Positions 14,103 to 22,592 of a DNA stretch of 64,000 nt are shown here, piece after piece (position 1 is the first letter of the stretch; each line of letters starts with the position of its first letter). The notes below the pieces were generated by a model. It saw nothing but the letters and a program-made list of their open reading frames with translations, was not told where the DNA came from and made no database searches. Origin of the DNA: Virgibacillus sp. 7505 (GTDB taxonomy: Bacteria; Bacillota; Bacilli; Bacillales; Amphibacillaceae). The translations under genes were made by a program, and so were the position numbers. The stretch spans positions 62,001 to 126,000 of the forward strand of contig NZ_NPBF01000021.1 in assembly GCF_002272135.1 (NCBI RefSeq), in the 5' to 3' direction.

Positions 14103-17100
14103 ATGGCACATAAAACACTGCTCATAGCATATAAAGATAAACTGCATAAATGCCATTTGCCGGAACAAACCGGTCAGACCGTAATCATCGGGGATAGACG
14201 AAAGAATCAGGTGACGATAGCCGGACTGGCAACTGAATTAGAATTGGAATGGGACGGTCAACAGTTATTCTATCAACAAGAAGAGATTCGTACTGCGAAA
14301 CAAATAGGGGAACTGAAGCTCTATGTGATGGATGCGAATAAATACAACGTCTTTGATATAGCTGGCCAGCAATCTATCGCATTCGGTGAAGCGGCCTACA
14401 ATGATATCAATAAACCGCATTGGAAAGCCGATTTTGTACTTCTGCGTGAAACGGATAGGTCTGGTTTCCGCATAGATCTACAAAGCGGAAGCATGTATCA
14501 TAACTACCGGCTGCTCCAAGATGATGTGCTTGTGGAAGATGGAGATATCCTGTTTGTAGATGGCGTCATGATGACAATCTACACAGATACAATTGAAATC
14601 AACTCAAACGGAAGTTTGGATGCTTCGTTCATGGAACTGATCGGTCAAGAAAAACCCTACGGCGGGGAGTATCCGGACTATCATCGTTCTCCGCGCATCA
14701 TTTACCGGGAACCGGAGGAAAAGCGCACGATTGCCAAACCAGCCAATAAGCCTAGTAAGCCAAGCGAGCAATTGGCGAGGAATATTGTACCGCCGCTTGT
14801 CATGATAGCGGCTTTGGTCGCTATTTCACTGGTTCAGCCACGCGGGATTTTCATCATCGTTATGGTAATCGCCACTTTGGTTACGGTTATCTTCTCCATC
14901 ACGTCTTATGTGAAAAATGTGCGCAAATACAAAGAGGACATGAAACAAAGAGAAGCAACGTATAAGAGTTACCTAAAGAGAAAAACGAAGGAACTATATC
15001 ATGCAAGTGAAGAACAGCGACATGCACTGCATTACCACTATCCTGATGTTCAGAAAATATCTGAGATGGCAGCTGCTACAGAAGCACGTATTTATGAGAA
15101 AACACCTTACCACCACGATTTTTTGAACTTCCGTACAGGGTTAGGGCGCGTGGATACAAGCTTTGAGATTTCGTACAACGAGGAAGAATTCACACAGGAG
15201 CAAGATGATTTGGTAGATGAAGCAAGACATTTACTAGAACAGTTCAAAGAATTGCATGATGTTCCGGTCATAACGTCCCTGACGAAGGGACCGGTCGGTT
15301 ATATCGGGCAGAGAAAGCTTGTTCTGGAGCAGCTCCAGCTATTAGTGATGCAGCTTTCTTTATTCCACAGTTATCATGATTTGCAGTTCGTTACGATTTT
15401 TCCGGAAGAAGAAAAGCAAGAGTGGGATTGGATGCGCTGGCTGCCGCATGCAAGTGTGCGAGACATCAATGTTCGAGGCTTCATTTATCATGAACGTTCC
15501 CGCGACCAAGTACTCCATAGCTTGTATCAAGTGCTGAAAGAGCGGAAGCTGCAAGTAGATGAAAAAAGCAATTCGAATGAGAAGCTTTATTTCTCACCAC
15601 ATTATGTTGTCCTTATTACCGATGAAAAGCTGATATTGGATCATACAATCATGGAATTTTTCAATGAAGATCCAAGTCAATACGGCGTATCGCTAGTCTT
15701 CGTTCAAGATGTGATGCGGGCATTGCCGGAGCATGTGAAAACAGTCATCGATATCCGCGATAGCAATGACGGAAAGATCATCCTGGAAGAAGCTGAGCTC
15801 GTCAACAAAGCATTCAAACCAGATCATTTCCCGGAGGATTTCAACAAAGAAGCTGTCTCTCGGGCTTTGGCGCCATTGAACCATCTCCAAAACCTGAAGA
15901 ATTCCATTCCAGAACAAGTAACGTTCCTGGAGATGTATGGAGTAGAGAAGGTGGAGGAATTAGCGATACAAGCACGCTGGCGCAAAAATGAGACATACAA
16001 GACTCTTGCTGTACCACTTGGACTGCGAGGAAAAGAAGATATTGTCCAACTTAATCTTCATGAGAAAGCACATGGTCCGCACGGATTGGTAGCGGGTACG
16101 ACAGGATCTGGTAAATCGGAAATTATCCAGTCGTATATTCTTTCGCTTGCTGTAAACTTCCATCCTTATGAAGTAGCATTCCTCCTGATTGACTATAAAG
16201 GAGGGGGAATGGCAAATCTGTTCCGCAACCTGCCTCATTTGATGGGGACGATCACCAACTTGGATCGTGCACAATCAATGCGTGCTTTAGCTTCCATTAA
16301 AGCAGAGCTGCAAAAAAGACAGCGTCTGTTTGGCGAGTATAACGTCAACCATATTAACCAATATCAGAAGCTATTTAAACAAGGAAAAGCAGCTGAACCA
16401 ATGCCGCATTTATTCCTTATTTCAGATGAGTTCGCCGAGCTGAAGTCCGAACAGCCTGAGTTTATGAAGGAACTTGTTTCTACGGCCCGTATCGGTCGTT
16501 CCTTGGGTATCCACTTGATTCTTGCGACACAGAAGCCAAGCGGTGTAGTGGATGATCAAATTTGGTCCAACTCCAAGTTCAAGCTGGCATTGAAGGTACA
16601 GAATGCAAGCGATTCGAATGAAATTATCAAAACACCTGATGCAGCAGAAATCACACTGCCCGGCCGTGCTTATTTGCAAGTTGGAAACAATGAAATCTAT
16701 GAACTGTTCCAGAGTGCATGGAGCGGAGCAGACTATATTCCGGATAAAAACGATGAAGACCATGTGGATCTTACCATCTACAGCATCAATGATCTGGGGC
16801 AATATGACATCTTAACGGAAGATTTAAGCGGACTGGAGAAGAAGGAATCTATTGAAAAGATTCCGTCAGAGCTTGATGCCATCATTGATCATATTGCGGA
16901 TTACACAGAACAGCAGCGTATTGAACCTTTAGCACGTCCATGGCTGCCGCCTCTGCCAGAAAAGATTTTCGGGCCGGAACTTCACCCAGTTTCATTCCGC
17001 GATGCATGGAAAGAACCGAAAAAGCCTTTGGAGCTGATGATTGGTTTACTCGACCAGCCGGAAATGCAGCAGCAGATCCCATTGACGCTAAATCTATCCA

Positions 17101-18536
17101 AAGACGGACATATTGCTGTATTTGCGAGTCCAGGTTATGGGAAATCGACATTCCTGCAGACAGTTGTCATGGATTTGGCGAGACAGCATAACCCGGAACA
17201 GCTTCATGTATATTTACTCGATTTTGGTACAAACGGATTGTTGCCTCTGAAGAATCTGCCGCATGTAGCCGATACGTTCCTCGTCGATCAAGTCGAGAAA
17301 GTAGGCAAATTAATCCGAATGCTGAATGGGGTCATGAAGCAGCGTAAACAAAAGCTGAGCCAGTACAGTGTGGCGAACATAGGCTTGTTCGAAAAAGCAA
17401 GCGGGGAGACTGTACCGAATATCTGTATTGTGATTGATAACTATGAGTCTGTCAGAGACAGTGATTTCGGTGACGATTTCGAGAAGGTAATCACACAGAT
17501 TGCCCGGGAAGGTGCCAGCATCGGAATTCATCTGATTATCAGTGCCGGGCGCCAAAGTGCGATGCGCATGCCTTTGCTGTCCAATATCAAGACACAAATC
17601 GCTTTGTACCTGATCGAGTCCAACGAAGCAAGATCGATTGTTGGGCGCACCGATATAGAAATTGAAGAAATCGCAGGCCGAGGTCTTGTGAAAATGGAGG
17701 AACCAGCATTATTCCAGACCATGCTGCCTGAACACGGGGAAGAAGCATTGGAAATCCTTGATCGGATTCAAGACTTAGCGAAAGACATGAACGAAGTATG
17801 GGATGGAGACTATCCGGATGCTATCCCGATGATGCCAGAAGGTGTCGTCGACTTCCAGGAATTCAAAGAACAGCGTCGTACCAAACGGATATTGGAAGAG
17901 AAGAAAGTGCCGCTTGGGCTTGATTTTGAAGAAGTATTGCCTGTTGCCTATAATCCGGCGCAATATGATCACATGACAGTTATCAGCGACCGGAAAGATG
18001 GATTGGATCGTATGATCAGATCTGTCGCGAAGAACGTTACGTTACTGAAAGATGTGTATCAAACGATGCTTATTGATACAGCAGATCAGGATATGGCTGA
18101 CGTAGGGAAAGACATGCATGCTTATGTGTCTGAATCAATTGGTATATCAACTATCAAAAATGAGCTCATAAATGAAATAAAACAACGTAATTCAGATGGA
18201 ATTTCGGAACCAAAATGGCTCGTACAAATAGCAGACCTGCAGGACTTCACGGAACGTGCAGGATTTACTCTTGAAGAGGCTACTCTCATGATGGAACGCG
18301 GCAGCAAAGCAGGCATACATTTCATCATTTGCAGCGATTACAACTATCTTGGAATGAGCTATGAGCAAGTACCAAAGTACCTTCGCAACCAAGCTATTTT
18401 CGGTCTTGTGGGCATGCGCTTAGGCGATCAGGATATCTTCAAACAGCCTTTTATCCGCCAGGAGAAATATCCTGAACCGTACGAATGCTATGTAGCCTTG
18501 GATCATCAGCATGTGAAAGTGAAAATACCGGAGTAG
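14103..18536 (+). CDS. essC: Type VII secretion ATPase EssC (YukBA)
   Basis: A 1477-residue FtsK/SpoIIIE-family motor. Order: two N-terminal FHA-like domains (about 1-190), two transmembrane helices (about 228-268), then three ATPase modules. Module 1 has Walker A GTTGSGKS (~665-672) and Walker B-like LFLISDEFAEL; module 2 has Walker A ASPGYGKST (~1008-1016); module 3 (from ~1280) has VISDRKDG in place of a P-loop and is probably non-catalytic. EssC drives substrate export and its C-terminal module usually determines which LXG cargo is accepted. The LXG module starts 12 nt after the stop. Ribosome site GAGGAAG upstream. Single unbroken frame. Confidence 0.95.
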   Translation: MAHKTLLIAYKDKLHKCHLPEQTGQTVIIGDRRKNQVTIAGLATELELEWDGQQLFYQQEEIRTAKQIGELKLYVMDANKYNVFDIAGQQSIAFGEAAYNDINKPHWKADFVLLRETDRSGFRIDLQSGSMYHNYRLLQDDVLVEDGDILFVDGVMMTIYTDTIEINSNGSLDASFMELIGQEKPYGGEYPDYHRSPRIIYREPEEKRTIAKPANKPSKPSEQLARNIVPPLVMIAALVAISLVQPRGIFIIVMVIATLVTVIFSITSYVKNVRKYKEDMKQREATYKSYLKRKTKELYHASEEQRHALHYHYPDVQKISEMAAATEARIYEKTPYHHDFLNFRTGLGRVDTSFEISYNEEEFTQEQDDLVDEARHLLEQFKELHDVPVITSLTKGPVGYIGQRKLVLEQLQLLVMQLSLFHSYHDLQFVTIFPEEEKQEWDWMRWLPHASVRDINVRGFIYHERSRDQVLHSLYQVLKERKLQVDEKSNSNEKLYFSPHYVVLITDEKLILDHTIMEFFNEDPSQYGVSLVFVQDVMRALPEHVKTVIDIRDSNDGKIILEEAELVNKAFKPDHFPEDFNKEAVSRALAPLNHLQNLKNSIPEQVTFLEMYGVEKVEELAIQARWRKNETYKTLAVPLGLRGKEDIVQLNLHEKAHGPHGLVAGTTGSGKSEIIQSYILSLAVNFHPYEVAFLLIDYKGGGMANLFRNLPHLMGTITNLDRAQSMRALASIKAELQKRQRLFGEYNVNHINQYQKLFKQGKAAEPMPHLFLISDEFAELKSEQPEFMKELVSTARIGRSLGIHLILATQKPSGVVDDQIWSNSKFKLALKVQNASDSNEIIKTPDAAEITLPGRAYLQVGNNEIYELFQSAWSGADYIPDKNDEDHVDLTIYSINDLGQYDILTEDLSGLEKKESIEKIPSELDAIIDHIADYTEQQRIEPLARPWLPPLPEKIFGPELHPVSFRDAWKEPKKPLELMIGLLDQPEMQQQIPLTLNLSKDGHIAVFASPGYGKSTFLQTVVMDLARQHNPEQLHVYLLDFGTNGLLPLKNLPHVADTFLVDQVEKVGKLIRMLNGVMKQRKQKLSQYSVANIGLFEKASGETVPNICIVIDNYESVRDSDFGDDFEKVITQIAREGASIGIHLIISAGRQSAMRMPLLSNIKTQIALYLIESNEARSIVGRTDIEIEEIAGRGLVKMEEPALFQTMLPEHGEEALEILDRIQDLAKDMNEVWDGDYPDAIPMMPEGVVDFQEFKEQRRTKRILEEKKVPLGLDFEEVLPVAYNPAQYDHMTVISDRKDGLDRMIRSVAKNVTLLKDVYQTMLIDTADQDMADVGKDMHAYVSESIGISTIKNELINEIKQRNSDGISEPKWLVQIADLQDFTERAGFTLEEATLMMERGSKAGIHFIICSDYNYLGMSYEQVPKYLRNQAIFGLVGMRLGDQDIFKQPFIRQEKYPEPYECYVALDHQHVKVKIPE

Positions 18537-18548
18537 GAGGATATTTCT

Positions 18549-18968
18549 TTGAGTAAGAATCTGAGCATTTTGCAATCACGAAAACGATCTTTGCTGAATG
18601 GAATCAGTGATGCAAGAAGCCAAGCAAATATGTGGGGCGATAAAATCAGTCGCCTCCAGGAGGCTTCTAACAGTCTTCAAGCAGATATCACTGCACTCGA
18701 AGCAGACAAAAGTAAAATTGACTCCTTTGAAATAGACAAAAAGCGCTGGAAGGGGAAAGAAGAAACCCGCTTTTCTGATGCTTATGCGGAATATAAAGAA
18801 CAAGTTCAGCTTTTTGTTAAAAAAACAAAGCAAGCGAAAGAAACAATTGATGATGAAATAGTCCGCTTCGAAGCAAATCGTGCCAGCTGTCTTGTAAGTG
18901 TGGAGAACCTGTCCATGTCTTTGAGCAACGTGGAAGGAAGAATTAGACAGGAAATGGAGAAGGAGTAA
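18549..18968 (+). CDS. DUF5082 (YwqH)-like coiled-coil protein, LXG partner
   Basis: A 139-residue, highly charged, all-helical protein with long heptad-like stretches (residues ~30-65 and ~85-135), no signal peptide and no membrane helix. Start TTG at 18549 with GGAGG 8 nt upstream. Length, position and helical pattern match the DUF5082 proteins (B. subtilis YwqH) that precede LXG toxin genes. By analogy with the LXG-associated helical proteins described in streptococci it could bind the LXG domain and form the export-competent complex. Family assignment is from memory of the order ywqH-ywqI-ywqJ. Confidence 0.75.
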   Translation: MSKNLSILQSRKRSLLNGISDARSQANMWGDKISRLQEASNSLQADITALEADKSKIDSFEIDKKRWKGKEETRFSDAYAEYKEQVQLFVKKTKQAKETIDDEIVRFEANRASCLVSVENLSMSLSNVEGRIRQEMEKE

Positions 18969-18972
18969 TGAT

Positions 18973-19242
18973 ATGGCGAAAGAAGTAGCTATAAATATGG
19001 AAGTCTTTGAATCCAATGTCAGCAGTTTAAAAGCATCGGCAGAAGCTTTACTTTTTAGCCAGCATAAAAGTTATACGCTGGAAAAAACAAATATTGCGCC
19101 ATTTACGAAAGATCTAGAACAAATGATAAAAGCTATTGAACTTTTGGATAGATATAAGACATTATTGATACAAGATATCCAAACTTTGAAAGAGGTAGGA
19201 GAAACAATGCGGGACACTGATGAGCAGCAAGGAAAGAAATAA
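18973..19242 (+). CDS. DUF5344 (YwqI)-like small helical protein, LXG partner
   Basis: An 89-residue helical protein starting KEVAINMEVFESNVSSLKAS, WXG100-like in size but without a W-x-G motif. This matches DUF5344 proteins (B. subtilis YwqI, YxiC), which sit between DUF5082 and LXG genes. Four nucleotides separate it from the preceding gene; GGAG ribosome site overlaps that gene's end. Probable role: second helical partner of the LXG domain in T7SS targeting (inference from context). Confidence 0.75.
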   Translation: MAKEVAINMEVFESNVSSLKASAEALLFSQHKSYTLEKTNIAPFTKDLEQMIKAIELLDRYKTLLIQDIQTLKEVGETMRDTDEQQGKK

Positions 19243-19284
19243 TACAACAGTCCGCTGAATAAATTGTTCGTGGAGGGTTGAGTA

Positions 19285-20775
19285 ATGGGATATAAAGTGG
19301 ATATGAGTGAGGTTAATCGCTTTTCGGAGGATTTATCCAATATTTCAAGTAATATTAAAGATGGTTTAGAAAAGTTAAATTCAGATATTGATAAAATTAC
19401 TAAGATGGAGTCCTTTAGAGGAAAAGCAGCGGATAACGCAAAAAGTTATTATACTAATGTACATGGAATGACTATCAAGTTGTTTCAGGATTTATGGAGT
19501 GAATTAGAGGTAAATTTAACCACTCATATAGAGACTTTTGCTACTGTCGTGGATACTGATAAAGCGGCTATCATTGAAAATGACTATCTTACAGACACTA
19601 CTAAGGAATTAGGTACTCAACACGCTAAGTTAGAAACAGAGGAATCTTCCATTCATAAAACAATCAATGGAATCTTGGATATTTGCAGCGTGGATAAACC
19701 ACAGTTGAGGGAATCCACAATACAAAAAGAAGAATCTGAAGAGGTCACAAAGAATACAAACGAGAATCTGGAAAATTATCAATCTGCCAATTACGGTGAC
19801 ATTGGTGCGTTGGATAAAGTAATCGATCAAATAGGTAACGCCATGACGGAAGCAGGGAAGAAATCCGGAACTGAACGTTTTGAAAAAGGTGCTGATTCTG
19901 CCTTTACGAATGTTATGACTGCGTTAAACAAGGCAACTACAAGTATTGCATATGTGAAGGATGGTCTATCTGGAGTTACCACCAATAAGCCTGTAATGCA
20001 AGCTGCAAAAGAGCTTGGGCTATCGGTAACACGTTCAGTTGATAAGAGTACAGGTAAACCAATTTATCGCATCTATGCAACGGAAGAAGCGCTAAAAAAA
20101 TTAGGTGTAGAGCCAGATTACCATGCGAGGCAGCAGTTGAAACATAAACAGTCTGGTATTGCAAAAGAAAATTGGCGCTATGAGATGAAAGTAAGATATA
20201 AACAAAAGGCAACGTTAATGTATTATGATAAAAAAACAGGTAAGCATGTATGGTCTACTATAGGAAAGCCATTGGTGGAAAAATATCCGTTGCTCAATGT
20301 GTGGAAAAAGAAAGCACCCTTCAGAGAAAGATATGGATCTTTTAAGCAGGAATGGAGTAAAGGATTTAAAGGCGGGATCAAAGATACTTTTAATGTTAAA
20401 TCATTAGTCAGTGATCTGGATAATAGCGCTAAAGGTATTTCTAAAACTGCTGGTAAAGCAATAGCACCTCTTGGAGTCGGTCTTGGTTACTACACAAATT
20501 ATAATGATGCTAAAAAGGATGGTCTTCAAGGAACTGAGGCTCATATAAGAGCTGTCGAGGATACTGCTATAGACACTGCTATAAGTACTGGTGTTCAAGC
20601 TGCGTTTACAGCTGCGGGTACTGCTTTTATTCCAATTCCTGGTGTAGGGACTGCAGTAGGGATAGGTCTTGGAGTTTTGGCAAACTGGGCTATCAGCAGA
20701 GAGTGGAAAAACGGCAAATCTCTAACTGGTATGGTTAAAGACGGGTTTCATAAGGTTAAAGGATGGTTTAAGTAG
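19285..20775 (+). CDS. LXG-domain type VII secretion effector with C-terminal glycine zipper
   Basis: A 496-residue protein. Residues 1 to ~205 form the LXG helical domain (VDMSEVNRFSEDLSN start, signature SFRGKAADNAKSYY near residue 45-60). A linker and a lysine-rich middle (about 240-380) follow. The C-terminus (about 390-485) has two hydrophobic stretches and a glycine zipper G455-xxx-G459-xxx-G463 within IPGVGTAVGIGLGVLANW. This resembles the pore-forming LXG toxin TelE of Streptococcus gallolyticus rather than nuclease LXG toxins; no HNH, deaminase or NADase motif is visible. GGAGG ribosome site upstream. The region is more AT-rich than the T7SS core. Pore formation is inference. Confidence 0.8.
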   Translation: MGYKVDMSEVNRFSEDLSNISSNIKDGLEKLNSDIDKITKMESFRGKAADNAKSYYTNVHGMTIKLFQDLWSELEVNLTTHIETFATVVDTDKAAIIENDYLTDTTKELGTQHAKLETEESSIHKTINGILDICSVDKPQLRESTIQKEESEEVTKNTNENLENYQSANYGDIGALDKVIDQIGNAMTEAGKKSGTERFEKGADSAFTNVMTALNKATTSIAYVKDGLSGVTTNKPVMQAAKELGLSVTRSVDKSTGKPIYRIYATEEALKKLGVEPDYHARQQLKHKQSGIAKENWRYEMKVRYKQKATLMYYDKKTGKHVWSTIGKPLVEKYPLLNVWKKKAPFRERYGSFKQEWSKGFKGGIKDTFNVKSLVSDLDNSAKGISKTAGKAIAPLGVGLGYYTNYNDAKKDGLQGTEAHIRAVEDTAIDTAISTGVQAAFTAAGTAFIPIPGVGTAVGIGLGVLANWAISREWKNGKSLTGMVKDGFHKVKGWFK

Positions 20776-20790
20776 TAGGGGGTAGTAAAT

Positions 20791-21597
20791 ATGAGAAACC
20801 GAAAATTAGGCGAGAAGGACTTTTGGGCTCTGAGAAATTCGCTTGATTCAAGACAGAGTATATCGTCCCTTGGAGTAATATTAATTGTTTCAATCTTTAT
20901 TAATGCTATATTATTTTTGATTGTATACTTGGTAGTATCTGATTACTCAACATATCCAAATGTAGAAAGTATTTTCAAAGTACATCTATATATAACAGTG
21001 ACATTAAGTCTGTTGAGTTTGATTTTTGGATTGCCAACTGTTTATAAACGTTTCGAGAAAATACAATATTTAATTTCTATAATTGTATCTCAAAATACAT
21101 TTGGAGCATTTCCGCTTTTATTAGCATTATTTGCATTTGGAAATGTATATGGAGTTACACAAAACAATTTATTAACGATAACCAAACTAGCATTATTTGC
21201 AGGAGTATTAGTTTTTTTAATCACCAGCATTCGTTTATTTCTTCTATTAAAGCGAGGAGAATACAGAGCTGATTCATCAAAAGACAAGGTGAGAAATAAG
21301 TGGGAACATTTTGTGAGCGGCAATCTACCTATTTTTATTGCGATAGGAGTAGGTATTGTATTTATAATACAATTCTTATTTAGGGTTATCCCTTTAGGGG
21401 ATTTTGATATCATAATTATGGGTACGCTCAGTATTCTTATCTATTTGACAATGCTTTTTGTACTGCCAGAGCAGCTTGTAATGTTGTATTGTAAAATTCG
21501 CTATGAGAGCTTTAATCACAACCGCAAAGGGAATTTAAAACCATTTGGATTTAAAACTCCTCAGAAAAAGAAAAAAAAGAATTATAAGGTCAGATAA
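20791..21597 (+). CDS. Polytopic membrane protein, candidate immunity protein for the LXG effector
   Basis: A 268-residue protein with about six transmembrane helices (roughly 25-50, 63-84, 93-116, 126-152, 179-200, 207-226) and a basic cytosolic tail with a run of lysines. I do not recognise a family. It starts 15 nt after the effector stop, with a GGGGG ribosome site. Immunity to membrane-damaging LXG toxins is usually a membrane protein encoded directly downstream, which fits here. The gene is strikingly AT-rich. An alternative is a general membrane transporter of the module. Confidence 0.6.
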   Translation: MRNRKLGEKDFWALRNSLDSRQSISSLGVILIVSIFINAILFLIVYLVVSDYSTYPNVESIFKVHLYITVTLSLLSLIFGLPTVYKRFEKIQYLISIIVSQNTFGAFPLLLALFAFGNVYGVTQNNLLTITKLALFAGVLVFLITSIRLFLLLKRGEYRADSSKDKVRNKWEHFVSGNLPIFIAIGVGIVFIIQFLFRVIPLGDFDIIIMGTLSILIYLTMLFVLPEQLVMLYCKIRYESFNHNRKGNLKPFGFKTPQKKKKKNYKVR

Positions 21598-21618
21598 GGA
21601 ATTTAGGGAGATGTTCAT

Positions 21619-22074
21619 ATGAATGTAGAAACAAAGGAACTCTATTTTTCGAATGTATTAATATATGAAAATATAATGTTACGAGAAGACTGGCAAGAAG
21701 GTGTGGTTATTTTGGAAAACTTCACCTTGAGCGAGGATATCTACAGGAATGGACCGGTTTTCTTTTCTGTGAAATCAGTTGACAATGAGCCCAAGTTCGG
21801 ACAATTTAAGTATTATTTACCAATAAATGAAAGGGCTGAATTTGAGAAACATCCGAATTTTCGATTTGTTCCAGAGTATGAAGTTGGAAAGGCGTTGGTT
21901 TTAAGACAGGCGTCAGAAGAAATAGATTTCCAAACAGCGTACTCCAAAGTTAAGGATTATGCAAATTCAAAAGGTATAGAATTGGAAGACATATACTACT
22001 GCTTCCTACTAGAGGTGTATGAGGACATAATAATAGATGTTTATGTACCTATAAAGCGAGGCGATTCCAATTGA
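21619..22074 (+). CDS. DUF5085-like protein (first of two)
   Basis: A 151-residue soluble protein beginning VETKELYFSNVLIYENIML and containing YRNGPVFFSVKS; from memory this pattern belongs to DUF5085, a family frequently found beside LXG genes in Bacillus and Listeria with a GyrI-like fold. No signal peptide or membrane helix. AGGGAG ribosome site 9 nt before the ATG. Function unknown: immunity, chaperone or regulation are all possible. Confidence 0.6.
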   Translation: MNVETKELYFSNVLIYENIMLREDWQEGVVILENFTLSEDIYRNGPVFFSVKSVDNEPKFGQFKYYLPINERAEFEKHPNFRFVPEYEVGKALVLRQASEEIDFQTAYSKVKDYANSKGIELEDIYYCFLLEVYEDIIIDVYVPIKRGDSN

Positions 22075-22547
22075 TAACCAACCACAAGTTTTCTTATCGC
22101 AATGTAGCTTCTAAATATTACGAGTTCCGACCTCAAGATATCAATAAAGCGATGGATGATTTTAGGCGTACTTTAGAAGGCTGTGGTCTGCATTTGTCTG
22201 GAAATATGTTCTTTTCCATATTAAGTGATCCTCAAAGTGAGATTATGATTGCAGAAATTTTCTTGTCAATAGAGGAAGATTCAATAAAAGGTCTAGTTTC
22301 TTCAGAGGAAGAGATTAGATTTCGTAGTTATTTCACTATAAGCCCAATGGTGATGACGAGAATAATGAAGGATTTTGATTTTGAATCTCAAAAAAAATAC
22401 TGGGAACTAGTAAGATATTTGCAAGTGAATCAATTAGAGCAAGCTACTCCATTATTTGTTGAGTTTAAGAACAGTCTATCTGGAATTGATTATGTGGAAA
22501 TGAGTATTGGGTATAAGTTAAACGCAGATAACATTAGAATTGGTTGA
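22071..22547 (+). CDS. DUF5085-like protein (second of two)
   Basis: A 158-residue soluble protein, translationally coupled to the preceding gene: its TTG start overlaps the TGA stop (TTGA). The layout FSYRNVASKYYEF followed by a helix and SGNMFFSILSDP parallels the FSNV...NGPVFFSVKS layout of its neighbour, so the two are probably diverged paralogues. Last gene of the LXG module before a strong terminator. Function unknown. Confidence 0.6.
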   Translation: MITNHKFSYRNVASKYYEFRPQDINKAMDDFRRTLEGCGLHLSGNMFFSILSDPQSEIMIAEIFLSIEEDSIKGLVSSEEEIRFRSYFTISPMVMTRIMKDFDFESQKKYWELVRYLQVNQLEQATPLFVEFKNSLSGIDYVEMSIGYKLNADNIRIG

Positions 22548-22563
22548 ATATGGTATTATATAA

Positions 22564-22592
22564 AAAGGAGCATGCCCCCGGCATGCTCCTTT
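22564..22592. terminator. Bidirectional terminator closing the LXG module
   Basis: Thirteen-base-pair stem AAAGGAGCATGCC / GGCATGCTCCTTT with a CCC loop; A-run on the left and T-run on the right. It ends the plus-strand T7SS/LXG transcript and also the convergent SRAP gene, whose stop touches it. Confidence 0.9.

Follow-up and report, generated by a model that had tools for sequence, protein, structure and literature searches.

How does a bacterium that exports a membrane-damaging toxin keep its own membrane intact, and do the genes encoded beside such a toxin guard it from one side or from both? This question is raised by a cargo module of the type VII secretion system in Virgibacillus sp. 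7505, encoded directly after the secretion ATPase gene essC on a 64,000-nucleotide stretch of contig NZ_NPBF01000021.1 (the window, to which coordinates without a locus prefix refer). The module encodes two small helical proteins, an LXG effector with a C-terminal glycine zipper, a 268-residue six-helix membrane protein that we named M268, and two DUF5085 proteins. Our analysis points to a TelE/EsxX-type cargo module of type VIIb secretion, directed against other bacteria and with two-sided immunity, a reading to which we assign a probability of about 77%.

TelE of Streptococcus gallolyticus damages membranes and is neutralised by TipE, a soluble DUF5085 protein predicted to bind its zipper region; TipE alone rescued Escherichia coli from TelE, whereas Gallo_0563, a six-pass protein encoded next to telE, gave no protection (PMC10434224). 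EsxX of Staphylococcus aureus ST398 depolarises membranes and is toxic from both membrane sides. Protection inside the cell comes from the DUF5085 pair ExiAB, for which a GyrI-like fold (duplicated SHS2) is named and in which the EsxX zipper is held in a groove of ExiB; protection from outside is provided by the six-helix membrane proteins ExiC (DUF5079) and ExiD (DUF5080), and only jointly. The exiAB genes stay with esxX, exiCD are also found alone, and the membrane layer was reported from Staphylococcaceae alone (all PMC12744356).

Results

The effector (496 residues; 19285–20775, plus strand) carries an LXG domain (PF04740, 3.3e-20) at residues 5–185, with the FxG motif at F44-R-G46, and the solved LXG domain 8gmh_B matches residues 4–185 (2e-5); PF04740 was found in all 29 effectors scanned. 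The glycine zipper G455-xxx-G459-xxx-G463 (20647–20673, plus strand) lies within a hydrophobic C-terminal segment, as an earlier, sequence-only reading of this DNA had described, and its glycines are conserved in 47 of 47 related modules; these were picked by a C-terminal profile, so that part of the conservation is built in, and other columns vary widely. Among 29 chosen full-length relatives, with identities down to 16%, only D132 and the three zipper glycines are invariant.

The C-terminal profile, which was seeded with the last 160 residues and extended with loci of the window's relatives, matches the LXG toxins of three loci encoding DUF5079/DUF5080 proteins (L175, 7e-17; L176, 3e-14; L206, 4e-15; L-numbers denote loci, that is, stretches of DNA, and G-numbers genomes, the window's own being G000). 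The link to TelE/EsxX-type toxins runs through these three, whose genomes are taken to be Staphylococcus, rather than through TelE or ST398 EsxX themselves. Further matches are an LXG toxin in L207 (3e-9) and a zipper protein lacking LXG in L208 (5e-14). The zipper domain also occurs on proteins of 391–408 residues that give no LXG-profile match and are followed by M268 and a DUF5085 pair (L080:11303-12478, L090:10388-11575, L091:8496-9722 and L092:10356-11531, all matched by the zipper profile); for L080, the one of these four scanned against Pfam, no LXG domain was found there either. Judged by its sequence, the effector is a relative of the glycine-zipper LXG toxins of the TelE/EsxX type, and we infer that it is active as a toxin.

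The toxin might instead be enzymatic, with the activity residing in the middle part (about residues 200–380) and the zipper serving only for translocation or as a membrane anchor. This part has no assigned role and co-varies with M268 (r 0.80). Nevertheless, no enzyme toxin family was found for the effector or 28 relatives among the 25 families listed out of 37, the residues invariant across the relatives (the zipper glycines and D132) include no catalytic-looking set in the middle part, and the shorter proteins described above retain the zipper domain with the same neighbours, which makes an enzymatic toxin very improbable. The sequence-only reading had likewise seen no nuclease or NADase signature, and a C-terminus matching an enzymatic toxin, which it had named as evidence against its proposal, did not appear.

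What would neutralise such a zipper inside the producing cell? Two DUF5085 genes lie downstream of the effector. The product of the first (21619–22074, plus strand; positional counterpart of ExiA) matches PF16895 with 1e-6 and 29.7 bits, just under the gathering cut-off of 30, and that of the second (22071–22547, plus strand; positional counterpart of ExiB) with 5.5e-17 and 63 bits. The model of the second protein, with a predicted local distance difference test (pLDDT) score of 92.6, consists of two beta-alpha-beta-beta units in a GyrI-like fold, and its best solved Foldseek matches are mostly GyrI-like, namely CTR107 (with rhodamine), EcmrR, BmrR and GyrI (best E 1e-6). Because it is the DUF5085 proteins TipE and ExiAB that counter TelE and EsxX in the cytoplasm, the two genes likely constitute a cytoplasmic immunity pair, and on present evidence they are better-grounded immunity genes than M268. 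The sequence-only reading had held that TelE is neutralised by a membrane protein, which is at odds with the soluble nature of TipE and the failure of Gallo_0563 to protect E. coli (PMC10434224). Its proposal of a Bacillaceae counterpart of TelE with a different immunity protein therefore stands as regards the zipper LXG toxin and the six-helix candidate, but the DUF5085 pair is better grounded and M268 is no substitute for TipE.

In a class-wide sample, DUF5085 was found in 17 of 398 genomes, 10 of which have a toxin found by the zipper profile. The rest comprise an LXG gene with only a GxxxG-type pattern (L212), M268 without a toxin (L211) and three lone DUF5085-like genes; the lone gene of L216 lies near a contig end, a weak match in L217 was unconfirmed by our own profiles, and one genome (G312) was left out of the sorting. 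The lone genes of this sample and of L174 refute a strict rule placing every DUF5085 gene in a zipper module. Lone DUF5085-like genes with neither a zipper-profile match nor M268 were seen at L215:7853-8329, L218:7971-8444, L174:9516-9995 and L216:7542-8015, some of them followed by a protein of 741–745 residues with five or six hydrophobic segments.

Between the effector and the DUF5085 genes lies M268 (20791–21597, plus strand), the candidate membrane immunity protein and, by place, the counterpart of ExiC. It was correctly described from sequence as a six-helix polytopic protein of no known family: Pfam gives no match for it, and its AlphaFold2 model, built with 45 relatives (pLDDT 88.2; predicted template modelling score 0.83), shows six long helices and a short N-terminal one. 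Across 128 relatives, the net charge is positive in the loops between helices 2 and 3 (+1.6) and 4 and 5 (+4.6) and in the C-terminal tail (+2.8), and zero or negative between helices 1 and 2 (0.0), 3 and 4 (-0.9) and 5 and 6 (-0.9), so both ends are predicted to be cytoplasmic. Variability peaks in two of the three outer loops (entropy 3.1 and 3.2, with 1.7 to 2.3 in the remaining segments), and the specificity of M268 probably resides there.

Searches for a known relative of M268 returned little. No listed Pfam or NCBIfam family matches more than two of the 45 relatives (for Pfam, among the 25 families listed out of 38), DUF5079 and DUF5080 being absent from those 25. There is no detectable relation to the two membrane proteins of LXG locus L212. 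Foldseek against the Protein Data Bank found nothing below E 0.7, and a structural comparison with 372 aligned chains gave none with Z of at least 8, although for a helical bundle both results carry little weight either way. The window's M268 had no match in plasmids or phages, and the M268 alignment none in viral contigs. In the open-licence literature on type VII secretion, LXG toxins and orphan immunity, we found no description of this family; likewise, nothing was found there on type VII secretion in Terribacillus, on LXG proteins in Virgibacillus or on type VII glycine-zipper membrane immunity in Bacillaceae. The membrane family thus appears to be undescribed, and it is present in many related bacteria.

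We surveyed which genes M268 occurs with. Among 200 related genomes, a plain search found M268 in 31, DUF5085 in 25 and LXG in 66, and all 25 DUF5085 genomes have M268, 23 by plain search and two (G103 and G115; loci L173 and L094) by profile. A scan of named genomes gave 66 M268 loci. Of these, 47 carry a full-length zipper toxin, directly upstream of M268 in 43; the other 19 comprise four with a toxin fragment, one with another LXG protein and 14 with none, six of the last being stretches shorter than 11 kb (L123, L124, L135, L139, L144 and L161) in which something may be cut off. Hence, M268 does not mostly occur without an LXG gene, a pattern that the sequence-only reading had named as contradicting it.

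The toxin and the DUF5085 pair are closely associated. After removal of double entries, 89 unique M268 loci remained, in which DUF5085 frames of at least 100 residues were counted. Among the 62 with a full-length zipper toxin, 59 have at least two such frames, one has one and two have none; among the 27 without it, eight have at least two and 19 have none. The association of the zipper toxin with at least two DUF5085 frames is significant (Fisher p 2e-10, or 1.3e-10 without three loci fetched via DUF5085), although the loci are kin to each other and the p values overstate their independence. An M268 frame of at least 200 residues is present in 14 of the 19 loci lacking both toxin and DUF5085, some of which are arrays, and L077 and L177 in this group also carry a DUF5085 fragment. 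This pattern matches the EsxX report, in which the soluble immunity stays with the toxin and the membrane immunity also occurs alone.

These counts bear on the view that the DUF5085 pair is the whole immunity and that M268 has some other role, for instance in secretion, folding or membrane release of the toxin. It would fit the rescue of E. coli by TipE alone, with no help from the six-pass neighbour (PMC10434224), and the position of M268 between toxin and DUF5085 genes in most intact modules (L104, with DUF5085 before the toxin, being an exception). Yet M268 persists without any DUF5085 frame of at least 100 residues in 19 of the 27 loci that have no full-length zipper toxin, and a secretion helper is unlikely because M268 is kept without cargo; moreover, EsxX needs separate immunity from outside (PMC12744356). 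We therefore regard a non-immunity role as unlikely, and favour M268 as an immunity protein that probably acts against toxin arriving from outside, as a second, outward-facing layer.

A second LXG protein without a zipper follows the module in L110, L111, L113, L121 and L153, with no M268 seen behind it (L111 ends soon after). Second LXG proteins that do match the zipper profile, in L075, L109, L112 and L160, also lack M268 behind them, which counts against a strict rule. In Virgibacillus chiguensis (L131, identical to L082), another glycine-rich LXG protein and a 181-residue protein with four hydrophobic segments lie between the Lap genes and the M268–DUF5085 set, as if new cargo had been inserted ahead of old immunity genes.

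Orphan copies of M268 can accumulate. In V. senegalensis, locus L100 holds five copies of 256–287 residues and a sixth that is split (frames of 216 and 48 residues), with no LXG or zipper match in 16.8 kb; the genome (G102) has one LXG match, listed without a place. One of these copies is 88% identical to the toxin-adjoining copy of Sediminibacillus terrae, and another 98% identical to an extra copy there. In multi-copy loci, the nearest relative lies in another genome for 56 of 80 copies and alongside for 24, part of the former count being shared descent in those array genomes that are close relatives. By these sequence comparisons, a mosaic origin of the arrays looks more likely than duplication in place.

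How readily the cargo is exchanged can be seen among ten Terribacillus genomes, the window's included. EssC is present in all ten, with identities to the window's protein of 93–97% in five, 89% in one and 84% in three. The module follows essC in four of them (the window, G573, G006, which is T. halophilus with locus L099, and G008). In G001 (T. saccharophilus, L070:9137-11314, identical to L140), the first Lap gene, M268 and the DUF5085 genes are kept, the first DUF5085 as frames of 53 and 127 residues, but neither the second Lap gene nor the LXG gene is present. The other five (L230–L234) have a different module directly after essC, with several small proteins of about 100–235 residues ahead of a cargo protein of 586, 586, 588, 638 or 685 residues that starts with MDVxYRSxQW, and a variable set of small genes behind it; these cargo proteins gave no match to our own LXG profile, the sole LXG search made on them. 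Beyond the module, the window and all but one of the nine other stretches share the same convergent gene; in L233, the exception, it did not come within the stretch.

Two contrasts show which parts change. Between the window and G573, of the same species, identity is 98% for the EssC C-terminus, 88 and 90% for the Lap proteins, 63% for the LXG domain, 50% for the middle part, 55% for the toxin C-terminus, 47% for M268, and 79 and 74% for the DUF5085 proteins. Between the window and G006, it is 94% for EssC, 80% for the LXG domain, 93% for the toxin C-terminus, 85% for M268, and 89 and 74% for the DUF5085 proteins. The toxin end and M268 shift in the same direction in both contrasts. Across 33 modules, the distances of toxin and M268 correlate with a Pearson coefficient of 0.69, a Spearman coefficient of 0.38, and a partial coefficient of 0.54 given EssC and the LXG domain, whose own distances follow EssC (0.86). 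A very strong co-evolution of toxin and M268 was rejected: it depended on a single outlier, L173, and the correlation became moderate once this was removed.

The remaining features confirm the gene order directly after essC that had been read from the sequence. Six plus-strand genes fill the interval between essC (14103–18536, plus strand; TIGR03928, 1927 bits), whose 3′ end borders the module, and a convergent gene at 22592. The first encodes a YwqH-like/DUF5082 helical protein associated with LXG toxins (18549–18968, plus strand; PF16888, 1.5e-21; LapX4 counterpart) and the second a TIGR04197/DUF5344 helical targeting protein (18973–19242, plus strand; TIGR04197, 6.7e-11; LapX3/Lap1 counterpart), the DUF5344 match of which reaches 1.9e-5 and 25.5 bits (cut-off 27). 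At the esxX locus, too, one DUF5344 and one DUF5082 gene sit between essC and the toxin (PMC12744356). An FxxxD motif has been described for the Lap1-type targeting partner (PMC9600955); in the window's targeting protein, M79xxxD83 occupies its position, with D83 kept in 63 of 63 aligned members and M79 in 43 of 63, the position being hydrophobic and mostly Met.

The guanine–cytosine content drops from 44.7% in essC to 33–35% in the DUF5085 genes and 30.9% in M268, and so resembles that of exchanged cargo. A terminator-like hairpin separates the module from the convergent gene (22564–22592; -21.9 kcal/mol, z -5.7 for the plus-strand fold). The hairpin behind the strong terminator claimed from sequence is real, but its T tract on the plus strand is just TTT and a terminator pattern scan reports the minus strand only, for which reason it probably also serves the convergent gene. 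The window's genome has three further LXG genes on other contigs (C5:189556, C6:22527 and C6:33706).

Discussion

The antibacterial module with two-sided immunity proposed here builds on computed features, namely gene order, homology of the toxin C-terminus, invariant zipper glycines, the GyrI-like DUF5085 fold, the six-helix model, gene association and orphan copies. The mechanism that these suggest is as follows. The two small helical proteins would dock onto the LXG domain and guide the effector to EssC, with the FxG motif (F44-R-G46) taking part in targeting. The zipper-bearing C-terminal domain, which would carry the toxin activity, may insert into the cytoplasmic membrane of a rival, oligomerise and depolarise it. 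As the zipper may also be able to attack the producer from within, it would be kept in a groove of the second DUF5085 protein, partnered by the first, and released only on secretion. In the producer membrane, M268 would block insertion or assembly of toxin arriving from outside. The insertion into rivals, the holding by the DUF5085 pair and the guarding of the outer face by M268, and with them the neutralisation by either layer and the side on which each acts, are modelled on the relatives.

Several observations weigh against this reading. No similarity of M268 to DUF5079 or DUF5080 could be detected (hhalign gave probabilities of 1.3 and 1.4 against DUF5079-like and DUF5080-like alignments of just 4 and 5 rows, with decoys at 0.1), so the proposed role of M268 rests on position and association. 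Its variable outer loops are an ambiguous sign of recognition, short loops being variable in most membrane proteins. The association itself has exceptions: DUF5085 is missing beside the toxin in L106 and L133, L140, L131 and others carry DUF5085 but no zipper toxin, and among the 19 loci lacking both, five hold only M268 fragments and two (L162 and L163) are distant relatives. The covariation of toxin and M268 is only moderate, with the DUF5085 proteins close behind (partial 0.50 and 0.41) and the middle part of the toxin at 0.56; within the species, the LXG domain differs as well (63%), and towards T. halophilus the second DUF5085 protein (74%) differs more than M268 (85%). The FxxxD motif expected in the targeting protein was not found, and occurs in the last 45 residues of just 3 of 64 relatives. 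Among the known systems, Gallo_0563 failed to rescue E. coli when the toxin was produced within the cell (PMC10434224), and neither ExiC nor ExiD protects without the other (PMC12744356), whereas the window has a single membrane protein.

The last point suggests that M268 may depend on another membrane protein, encoded elsewhere, in the way that ExiC depends on ExiD. In favour of this, among the 59 loci that combine the toxin with M268 and a DUF5085 pair, several M268 copies or fragments are present in 25, and a further polytopic frame lies within 1.5 kb beyond the last DUF5085 gene in 10. Against it, 28 of the 59 show a solitary M268 with no additional polytopic frame in the 1.5 kb downstream, and in the window the convergent gene comes directly after the module. 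An obligatory partner is accordingly rather doubtful, if somewhat less so than a role of M268 outside immunity, and we retain M268 as the probable outer layer.

A broader proposal, to which we give even odds, is that the M268 family evolved as a separate lineage of membrane immunity against the zipper toxins countered by ExiCD, works without a second protein, recognises toxins through hypervariable outer loops and is traded among Bacillaceae as mosaic orphan arrays that record the toxins of rivals met. As far as the literature searched shows, the membrane family is new, together with its distribution and the orphan arrays, while this kind of module and this kind of soluble pair were already known. 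The 133 M268 copies of at least 225 residues form a large natural set from which the recognition of a pore-forming toxin by a membrane protein might be read, and the spectrum of protection conferred by orphan arrays is open to strain-against-strain comparison.

Comparison with known systems

The resemblance to TspA–TsaI of S. aureus, as described in PMC12744356, lies in a depolarising type VIIb toxin with a single membrane immunity protein; in contrast to the mechanism proposed here, TspA is toxic only from outside and needs no cytoplasmic immunity, and M268 is likened to TsaI by description. TelE–TipE of S. gallolyticus (PMC10434224), likewise compared by description, shares the zipper LXG toxin, DUF5085 immunity and a six-pass protein directly downstream. 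In common with ExiC, M268 has six transmembrane helices, a place directly downstream of the toxin and orphan copies, whereas membership in the same sequence family was not found.

The closest layout is that of EsxX–ExiABCD of S. aureus ST398, which shows that one toxin can need two immunity layers, one per membrane side (PMC12744356). The window differs in having one membrane protein unlike DUF5079/DUF5080, no exiD counterpart and the reverse order of the Lap genes. If the reading proposed here is true, the same layout recurs in many Bacillaceae with another membrane family, and the two-layer rule would be general and its outer layer replaceable. Both systems share the zipper LXG toxin after essC, the two Lap proteins, a polytopic protein beside the toxin and the DUF5085 pair, and both have orphan membrane immunity genes.

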